A stretch of 64,000 nt of DNA from Gemmatimonadota bacterium (GTDB lineage: Bacteria > Gemmatimonadota > Gemmatimonadetes > Longimicrobiales > Gaopeijiaceae), in NCBI GenBank assembly GCA_030428885.1, contig JAUIEJ010000015.1, positions 1-64,000 of the forward strand, read 5' to 3'. Every line of letters begins with the position of its first letter. The first letter of the stretch is position 1. Below the pieces are notes generated by a model. That model worked only from the letters and a program-made list of their open reading frames with translations. It searched no databases and was not told the DNA's origin. This document shows, one piece after another, positions 3,389 to 9,801 of this stretch. Position numbers and translations under genes: made by a program.

Positions 3389-3454
3389 CTTGCCCCGAGC
3401 GCCGGGCCCACCGTAGGCTCGGGACCCGTTCCCCACCGAACCCGGAGATCCGGC

Positions 3455-3802
3455 ATGGCGACCCTGGAGTGGCGGTACCACCGCCCTGGCTGAACGAGCT
3501 GCGCCCGCACTCGGGAGTTTCTCGAGCAGAACCACATCGACGACGGCGAGGTCCGCAGCGCCTCGAAAGACCCCGTGGTGGGAGACGACGCCCTGAAGGT
3601 TCTCCAGGGGATCGACGACCTCTACGTGGCCAAGGGCCGAAAGACCCTACACGTGGACCTGAAGAACGCCCGCCCCCCGGACGACGAGCTCCTGGGCCTC
3701 CTCCTGGGCCGATCGGGCAAGCTCCGGGCCCCGGCGCTGAAGACCGGTCGCACGCTCATCGTGGGATTCAACGCCGACATCCTGACCGACCACCTGGCCT
3801 GA
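3455..3802 (+). CDS. ArsC-family (seleno)protein; TGA at 3491-3493 read as selenocysteine
   Basis: Reading from ATG 3455 gives a 115-residue thioredoxin-fold protein of the ArsC/Spx type if the in-frame TGA at 3491-3493 is decoded as selenocysteine. The redox motif then reads G-U13-T-S-C16, a UxxC version of the CxxC/CxnC catalytic site, followed by 'ARTREFLEQNHID' (the usual helix 1 of ArsC proteins). The body has 'LLGLLLGRSGKLRAPALKTG' and 'TLIVGFN', the ArsC-family C-terminal RxP region. Sequence continuity on both sides of the TGA in one frame, and a SECIS-like hairpin directly after it, argue against a nonsense mutation. From memory, public annotation uses 'ArsC family (seleno)protein' for such sequences. 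The natural reaction is unknown; a thiol/selenol oxidoreductase is likely. A TGA-blind caller would report only a C-terminal fragment from GTG 3575. Confidence 0.85.
3494..3526 (+). promoter_or_regulatory. Bacterial SECIS element (selenocysteine insertion hairpin)
   Basis: Directly after the in-frame TGA (3491-3493), bases 3510-3516 (CTCGGGA) pair with 3520-3526 (TCTCGAG). This gives a 7-bp stem with one G-U pair and a 3-nt loop GTT at 3517-3519. The loop begins 24 bases after the TGA and its first base is G. Bacterial SECIS elements are described as having a small apical loop 16-37 nt after UGA with a guanosine in the first two loop positions, and this hairpin meets all of that. It lies inside the coding sequence (T-R-E-F-L-E). 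SelB binding is inferred. Confidence 0.75.
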
Positions 3803-7573: not shown

Positions 7574-8665
7574 CTACGACCCGCTCCGCTCGGGGAAGAG
7601 CCGTCGAAGCCCCTGGGCGATGCCCTCGGTGGCGTGAGCCACCCCCCGCTCGGTGACGATCCCGGTGACCAGCCGGGCCGGAGTGACGTCGAAGGCGTAG
7701 TTCACCGCCGGGGATCCCTCGGGGATGACCCGGACGATGGCCGACTCCCCGTCGGCGGTGCGGCCGCGGATCCATGCGACTTCGTCGGGGGAGCGTTCCT
7801 CGATGGGAATGTCCGCGCCCTCCCGGAGGCCCCAGTCGATGCTCGACGACGGCGCCGCCACGAAGAAGGGCACCCGATTGTCCGCTGCGGCCAGCGCCAC
7901 GGCGTACGTGCCGATCTTGTTGGCCACGTCCCCGCGGGCGGTGGTGCGGTCGGTCCCCACCACCACCATGTCCACTTCGCCTCGGGCCATGAGATGGGCG
8001 GCGGCGGTGTCCGGGACGACGGTGTGGGGGACTCCGTGCTTACCCAGTTCCCACGCCGTGAGCCGGCCTCCCTGCCGGCGGGGCCGGGTCTCGTCGACCC
8101 ATACGTGCACGGGAAGCCCCTCTTCGTGGGCCATGTAGATGCCCGCCGTGGCCGTGCCCCAATCCACCGTCGCCAACCAGCCGGCGTTGCAGTGGGTGAG
8201 GATCCGGACGGGGCGATGGGCCACCCCCAGGGTACGGATGAGGTCCAGGACGTGTCGACCGAGGGCCCGGTTGGTGGCCACGTCCTCCTGGCAGATCTCC
8301 CGGGCCAGCTCCAGCGCGGCAGCCTCCCGTTCGACGGGAGCCAGGAGGGCGAGGCGCTCCCGGGCCCGATCCAACGCCCACCGCAGATTCACGGCGGTAG
8401 GCCGCGTTGCCTCGAGGATTGCCAGAGACCGGGCCAGCCCCGGGTCGGAGGGGTCTTCGCCCATGCCCAGCATCATCCCGTAGGCCGCGGCGGCGCCGAT
8501 GAGGGGCGCCCCCCGGAGCTGCATCGTGCGGATGGCCGTGGCCATGGCCTCCAGGGAGTCCACCGGGAGCACCCGGAACTCGTGGGGGAGGACCGTCTGA
8601 TCGATGATCCGCACCGCACCATCCTCGTCCCAGATGGTCCGGTGGTGAACGCCGTCCACCTTCAC
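7574..8665 (-). CDS. mtnA: S-methyl-5-thioribose-1-phosphate isomerase
   Basis: A 363-residue enzyme converting 5-methylthioribose-1-phosphate to 5-methylthioribulose-1-phosphate in methylthioadenosine salvage. Family motifs are complete: 'TMQLRGAPLIGAAAAYG', the catalytic Cys159 in 'ILTHCNAGWLAT', and the catalytic Asp239 followed by 'ARGDVANKIGTY'. The start is GTG 8665, overlapping the stop of the upstream RuBisCO-like gene as GTGA, so the two are translationally coupled. Extending the frame upstream gives non-homologous sequence. eIF2B-alpha-like paralogues were considered, but the Cys and Asp pair favours MtnA. Confidence 0.92.
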   Translation of the reverse strand: MKVDGVHHRTIWDEDGAVRIIDQTVLPHEFRVLPVDSLEAMATAIRTMQLRGAPLIGAAAAYGMMLGMGEDPSDPGLARSLAILEATRPTAVNLRWALDRARERLALLAPVEREAAALELAREICQEDVATNRALGRHVLDLIRTLGVAHRPVRILTHCNAGWLATVDWGTATAGIYMAHEEGLPVHVWVDETRPRRQGGRLTAWELGKHGVPHTVVPDTAAAHLMARGEVDMVVVGTDRTTARGDVANKIGTYAVALAAADNRVPFFVAAPSSSIDWGLREGADIPIEERSPDEVAWIRGRTADGESAIVRVIPEGSPAVNYAFDVTPARLVTGIVTERGVAHATEGIAQGLRRLFPERSGS

Positions 8666-9801
8666 GGGCGGTCCGTCCCGGCCCCGGACACCGCGTGGGC
8701 CGCCTCCACCACGCCCCGGGCCGCGGCCTCCACGTCGTCGGCTTCCAGCACACTCCCGCCGATGAGCAGGAGGGTGTCGGGGCCGTAGAGTCGGAACCAG
8801 TGCTCCACCTCCCGGGCCTGAATGCCGCCCGCCGGAACGGGGAACGCCGGCGGGTGCACGCCAAGGGGCGCCCGGGCCCGCCGGTTCACGGCCTGGCACG
8901 CCTCCACGGGCCAGGCGAAGCGCCCCCGGGCGTTCACGTAGACCACGCAGTCGGCTCCGGCCAGCCGCCACAGGGTGCCCATGAGGAGGTCCGGGGCGAT
9001 GCCCCTCCGGGCATTCGGGGAGGTGTTGGAATGGGAGGGGTGGGCCATGATGGCCAGCCCGGTGCCGGCCCAGGCCACGGCGTGCATAGCGTCCAGCCCG
9101 GTGAGCCCCGGACAGAGCACGACCCCGCCGCAGCCCGCGGCTCGCGCGGCCTCCACCCGGCCCGGGATCTCGTGCCCGGGGGCGGTGACGTTGGGGAAGT
9201 AGGCGGTGCGCCCACCGGAGCGTGCGTTCTCGTCCGCCACGGCGGCGCTCACCGCGGCCACCCGGTCCTCGAACGGCGCGATGGCCTGGTTCGCCAGGCC
9301 GTGGTCGTCCTTGATGACATCCACGCCGGCCCGGGCCAGGGTGCGGGCCAGGGTCGCGAGTTCGGGCACGGTGAGTCCCACGGGCTTGAGGGCGCTGCTC
9401 ACCAGGGGGCGGCCCTCCTCCGCGCCCACCAGGGCTCGAACGCCGGGAATCCCGAGCCGGGGTCCCACGAAATCCCCCAGCAGCCACGCCGGCAACTCGG
9501 CGTCCTCCAGGAGGACCTCGTCCATGAGGGAGACGTTCCCCCAGAGCACGTTGAGGAGCTGGGTCAGCGTCCCGTCGAAGAGCTCCCGGGCGTACTCGAT
9601 CACGATGTGGGCCGGGGCCCCGTCCCGTAGATCCGCCGTCGCGGACACGACCTTTCCCAGCAGCGCGGCCTCGATGTCCGGCGTGGCGGCGCCGGGGGGA
9701 ACCTCCAGCGTCTGCTCCCGGGCGATGGCGTCGGCCCGGGAGGCGTGGGGTTCGCCGGGAATGGGCCCCAGTCGGTAGTGGGCTCGGATGGGTCGGGCCA
9801 C
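8662..9801 (-). CDS. RuBisCO-like protein (form IV), likely acting on methylthioribulose-phosphate
   Basis: A 379-residue RuBisCO large-chain homologue. 'SALKPVGL' carries the catalytic Lys139, and 'GVDVIKDDHGLANQ' holds Lys164 (the carbamylation position) with Asp165-Asp166; the usual Glu ligand of KDDE is replaced by His167. The barrel continues with 'VVLCPGLTGLDAM', 'IMAHPSHSN' and 'PVPAGGIQAREV'. Missing loop-6 and substrate residues of true RuBisCO place it among form IV RLPs. Coupling with mtnA makes MTA metabolism the best context: either an enolase (MtnW) step or a methylthioribulose-1-phosphate isomerase as in the MTA-isoprenoid shunt. The sequence alone does not choose between them. 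The start is GTG 9801, preceded by GACGAGG. Confidence 0.85.
   Translation of the reverse strand: MARPIRAHYRLGPIPGEPHASRADAIAREQTLEVPPGAATPDIEAALLGKVVSATADLRDGAPAHIVIEYARELFDGTLTQLLNVLWGNVSLMDEVLLEDAELPAWLLGDFVGPRLGIPGVRALVGAEEGRPLVSSALKPVGLTVPELATLARTLARAGVDVIKDDHGLANQAIAPFEDRVAAVSAAVADENARSGGRTAYFPNVTAPGHEIPGRVEAARAAGCGGVVLCPGLTGLDAMHAVAWAGTGLAIMAHPSHSNTSPNARRGIAPDLLMGTLWRLAGADCVVYVNARGRFAWPVEACQAVNRRARAPLGVHPPAFPVPAGGIQAREVEHWFRLYGPDTLLLIGGSVLEADDVEAAARGVVEAAHAVSGAGTDRP

Follow-up and report, generated by a model that had tools for sequence, protein, structure and literature searches.

A short reading frame from a Gemmatimonadota bacterium is interrupted at its thirteenth codon by TGA and then continues in the same frame, which raises the question of whether this codon is decoded as selenocysteine (Sec) and, if so, what kind of protein results. 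The frame lies within a stretch of 64,000 nucleotides, here called the window. The original prediction, which had also rightly proposed Gemmatimonadota as the host phylum, placed the frame and its Sec13-Thr-Ser-Cys16 motif correctly (Table 1), and both the TGA and Cys16 are invariant in the family. Translation with TGA read as Sec (U) gives a product of 115 residues, MATLEWRYHRPG-U-TSCARTREFLEQ..., ending at the next in-frame stop. This read-through product matches the NCBIfam model NF041106, “ArsC family (seleno)protein”, with 116 bits against a curated cut-off of 85, and has near its N terminus the UxxC (or CxxC) by which that family is recognised. The same model is matched by 31 of 31 aligned relatives. 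We consider it very probable that the gene encodes an NF041106 selenoprotein, its UGA being decoded as Sec via SelB, tRNA-Sec and a downstream hairpin, and its product combining an Spx/ArsC-type fold with Sec13/Cys16 chemistry.

Table 1. Features of the predicted selenoprotein gene, in window coordinates.
Feature	Position	Strand	Evidence
NF041106 (ArsC_rel_Se_1) predicted selenoprotein gene, start codon ATG 3455	3455..3802 (stop included)	+	Translation with TGA=U; 116 bits; AlphaFold mean pLDDT 94
GGAG, Shine-Dalgarno-like, 7 nt 5' of ATG	3444..3447	+	Sequence
UGA, predicted Sec13 of the UxxC motif	3491..3493	+	TGA in 57/57 phylum-sample members and 48/48 GTDB loci
TGC, Cys16, putative resolving partner in U-T-S-C	3500..3502	+	Cys in 49/49 sequences
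Candidate bacterial SECIS hairpin, CUCGGG-AGUUU-CUCGAG	3510..3526	+	Covariation, energy and spacing, published rule
Terminating TGA	3800..3802	+	Relatives terminate at the matching site or a few codons away from it

An in-frame TGA could also mean that a Cys codon (TGC or TGT) has mutated to TGA or been misread as such, leaving a dead or miscalled gene, and the frame is indeed intact but for a single premature stop. This reading, to which we assign a negligible probability, is refuted because the TGA is conserved across genera. In a sample of 249 genomes from the phylum, the family is present in 57, and all 57 members, from independent genomes, contain exactly one in-frame TGA. Among 38 genomes (the own genome and close relatives), 11 encode the family over the cut-off, and every one of these genes again has a single in-frame TGA; a further genome holds a family fragment carrying the TGA. 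A search of GTDB genomes, using peptide patterns able to find Cys forms too, returned 48 loci, all with the TGA; these are labelled mostly as Gemmatimonadota or Longimicrobiales, with some Latescibacterota and Gammaproteobacteria. On contigs with a Gammaproteobacteria label (L058, L060, L067 and L081) the copies are nearly identical and their neighbours resemble those on Gemmatimonadetes-labelled contigs; these are either wrongly labelled bins or cases of recent transfer. Near the terminating site of the window gene, the frame ends with TGA in 32 and TAG in 17 of 49 family sequences.

The codons themselves also speak against a dead gene. Over the nine codons 5' of the TGA, 49 sequences differ from the window 25 times at position 1, once at position 2 and 139 times at position 3, a pattern that indicates protein-level selection on these codons. 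Purifying selection acts on both sides of the TGA. Such protein-level conservation ahead of the TGA implies that translation passes through it. A covarying hairpin downstream, described below, likewise argues against a pseudogene or sequencing error.

Decoding of UGA as Sec calls for a dedicated machinery, which the original prediction implied for this genome; a genome without selA, selB or selC was named as the finding that would count against it. In the own genome (G000; 5.39 Mb, 95% complete), selC, encoding a tRNA-Sec with anticodon TCA, is found over the cut-off on contig C8 (40201-40293, 74.5 bits), and selB (C8, 224230, 317 bits), selA (C10, 317533, 519 bits) and selD (C15, 127054-127992, 355 bits) all score over their curated cut-offs. 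The combination of selA, selB, selC and selD taken as the criterion for bacterial selenoproteins is thus complete. No tRNA genes were found within the 64-kb window. The selD gene of this genome itself contains an in-frame TGA (...HGAG-U-ACKLG..., locus L117, TGA at 385), and therefore a second gene in G000 appears to be recoded likewise. A single in-frame TGA is also found in selD in most relatives whose copy exceeds the cut-off.

Across genomes, the family tends to occur together with this machinery. tRNA-Sec is found over the cut-off in 53 of 57 family carriers versus 183 of 248 genomes overall (Fisher p = 5e-5, in a comparison that includes relatives, which are not independent of one another, and that assumes both samples to comprise the same genomes). 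Of the four remaining carriers, all drafts, G125 and G153 are listed without a tRNA-Sec, and G189 and G228 are not among the genomes listed. In a tally of the 38 genomes, the gene is present in 12 of 26 with at least two sel genes versus none of 12 without (p = 0.004). The 183 of 248 sampled Gemmatimonadota genomes with tRNA-Sec indicate that selenocysteine use is common in the phylum. Within the same order, no genome examined from family f3 gives a selA or selB match that exceeds the cut-off.

Beginning shortly after the UGA is a hairpin with a 6-bp stem (3510-3515 with 3521-3526) and an apical loop at 3516-3520. Published rules for the bacterial SECIS (PMC13188914) describe an upper stem of 4-16 bp, a loop of 3-9 nt with G in the first two loop positions, a distance of 16-37 nt from the UGA and a minimum free energy of at most -7.5 kcal/mol. 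The candidate has 6 bp, a loop of AGUUU (G at position 2, then U) and a spacing of 22 nt past the UGA. Its energy is -8.1 kcal/mol in a 24-nt segment and -9.5 in one of 33 nt, the bare 17-nt hairpin reaching -7.0. When the 40 nt from the UGA are folded alone, a different structure is preferred (-13.8 kcal/mol, z -1.1). As the isolated fold favours this alternative and z-scores are weak, the case for the hairpin rests on covariation and not on free energy.

Across 36 sequences, 98.6% of cells in the stem are paired, with compensatory changes at two pairs (GC/UA/AU and AU/GC). The covariation score is reached by none of 500 shuffles and by no slid version of the hairpin, although the count of changed pair types does not exceed that in the shuffles. 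As the sequences are also related, more weight belongs to the comparison with slid versions. Codons within the hairpin are frozen even synonymously (Glu is GAG in 49 of 49 sequences, Phe is TTT in 48 of 49), in contrast to the variable Glu and Pro codons further upstream. With a covariance model of the UGA and hairpin, the selenoprotein gene is the only convincing match in the own genome (E 1e-17). The next matches had E-values of 0.03 and worse, and the four that were inspected were rejected, having either a TGA apparently out of the likely frame or a start lacking TGA. An Rfam search of the gene region gave no match. The Rfam SECIS_1 model (RF00031) has no match in the genome; its absence is uninformative because it matches none of the control genomes either and is the eukaryotic element.

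UGA might also be read through with another residue, inserted by a near-cognate tRNA-Trp or a suppressor tRNA, and the identity of an inserted residue cannot be named from sequence alone. We regard this as very improbable given a tRNA-Sec with the TCA anticodon alongside selA, selB and selD, a hairpin that fits the bacterial SECIS rule, a position equivalent to the catalytic Cys of homologues, and a family that is named as a selenoprotein family. Sec is assigned to position 13 with high confidence, as a prediction, and decoding of the UGA as Sec by SelB and tRNA-Sec, probably helped by the hairpin, is strongly supported by sequence comparison. The proposal of a selenoprotein read through an in-frame TGA is thereby borne out by the family match, the invariant TGA, the Sec machinery and the covarying hairpin.

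Homology and structure prediction suggest that the product adopts an Spx/ArsC-type thioredoxin-like fold. The AlphaFold model is confident (mean pLDDT 94, pTM 0.87), and in the PDB it most closely resembles Spx and ArsC-related proteins, then glutaredoxins, at moderate TM-scores of about 0.55. The nearest solved structures by sequence are those of Spx (6ghb, 1z3e and 3gfk), which share a related fold and carry CxxC where the window protein has UxxC, so that an Spx Cys aligns with the TGA position. Cys-type ArsC relatives in the phylum have Cys in the motif corresponding to the Sec position. Homologues without Cys or Sec here would have spoken against the original prediction, but the more distant Spx/ArsC homologues do carry Cys. 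The own genome also encodes a Cys-type ArsC/Spx-related paralogue with the motif C-R-D-T-R-K-A (locus L034, contig C22, 60785-61087).

Membership of the better known families is another matter. The window protein scores 20.3 bits with Pfam ArsC (PF03960), narrowly below the gathering score of 24, 26.4 bits with the Spx/MgsR model TIGR01617 (cut-off 75.05) and 28.1 bits with NF002459 (cut-off 123); the sub-cut-off PF03960 and Spx/MgsR scores point to related families. The description “ArsC family” in the original prediction holds through the NF041106 match, but as a loose term only, given the narrow miss with PF03960. A role as an Spx-like regulator, binding RNA polymerase and sensing redox state through a selenenyl-sulfide instead of the Spx disulfide, would agree with Spx being closest among solved structures by both sequence and fold, with the alignment of its CxxC to UxxC, and with the weak TIGR01617 match of 30 of 31 family members. 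It is nevertheless unlikely, as identity to Spx is about 25%, scores fall far below the curated Spx cut-offs and there is no sign of a regulator role. A true arsenate reductase with Sec in place of the catalytic Cys would suit the ArsC-type fold and the naming of the family. This reading is equally unlikely: the PF03960 score lies below the gathering threshold, the flanking genes that were examined include none for arsenic, and the window protein has UxxC where classical ArsC has a single catalytic Cys.

The most likely role, as far as sequence and model allow, is that of a Sec/Cys oxidoreductase built on an Spx/ArsC-type thioredoxin fold, with neither Spx nor arsenate reductase membership established. 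Judging from the UxxC motif, Sec13 would most likely act as a selenolate that attacks an oxidised substrate, Cys16 would resolve the resulting intermediate by forming a selenenyl-sulfide, and a thiol donor of the cell would regenerate the enzyme.

Gene order gives little guidance to the substrate. Upstream lies a gene whose 73-residue product matches no Pfam family, and downstream, on the opposite strand, one for an inositol monophosphatase. Over 48 loci, conserved neighbours are found only within close lineages, nothing beyond the selenoprotein gene being clearly shared with the window, and no neighbour that would point to a substrate is kept across lineages. Further along the window, on the minus strand, a RuBisCO-like protein gene (8662-9801; PF00016, 63 bits) directly adjoins a gene for an IF-2B family protein (7574-8662; PF01008) resembling methylthioribose-1-phosphate isomerase; the two are probably a methionine-salvage pair.

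The gene is not new in kind, being by its sequence a further member of a family already described in 2008. “Arsenate reductase 2” (cd03032, UxxC) was reported as a selenoprotein family in the 2008 GOS survey (PMC2398784), and Table 1 of a 2026 review (PMC13188914) lists NF041106 as “Arsenate reductase-like protein, UxxC”, citing the GOS paper for the family. The equation of NF041106 with the GOS family rests on that citation and the common motif. The window protein agrees with NF041106 in its UxxC, its one Sec and its full-length match, and nothing separates it from the family. It shares motif and family with the GOS sequences, which come from marine metagenomes, whereas the window gene is from a Gemmatimonadota assembly with Sec machinery. 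“Arsenate reductase (ArsC) 1” of the same survey also belongs to the ArsC family and has Sec in its active-site motif, but is a separately listed family with UxxS instead of UxxC.

Gemmatimonadota are unmentioned in the main text of the review (PMC13188914) and of a 2016 survey (PMC5029168), and the locus provides a clean case of UGA recoding, with several lines of evidence, in this phylum. Gene callers that halt at TGA would miss or shorten such genes. In Gemmatimonadota, no Cys version of the NF041106 family protein was found in any genome searched, suggesting a reaction for which Cys is inadequate. We tentatively propose, at somewhat less than even confidence, that in this phylum the family exists in the Sec form only and is an ArsC/Spx-fold selenoenzyme acting on an undescribed substrate. 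This Sec-only pattern makes the family a reasonable target for biochemistry.
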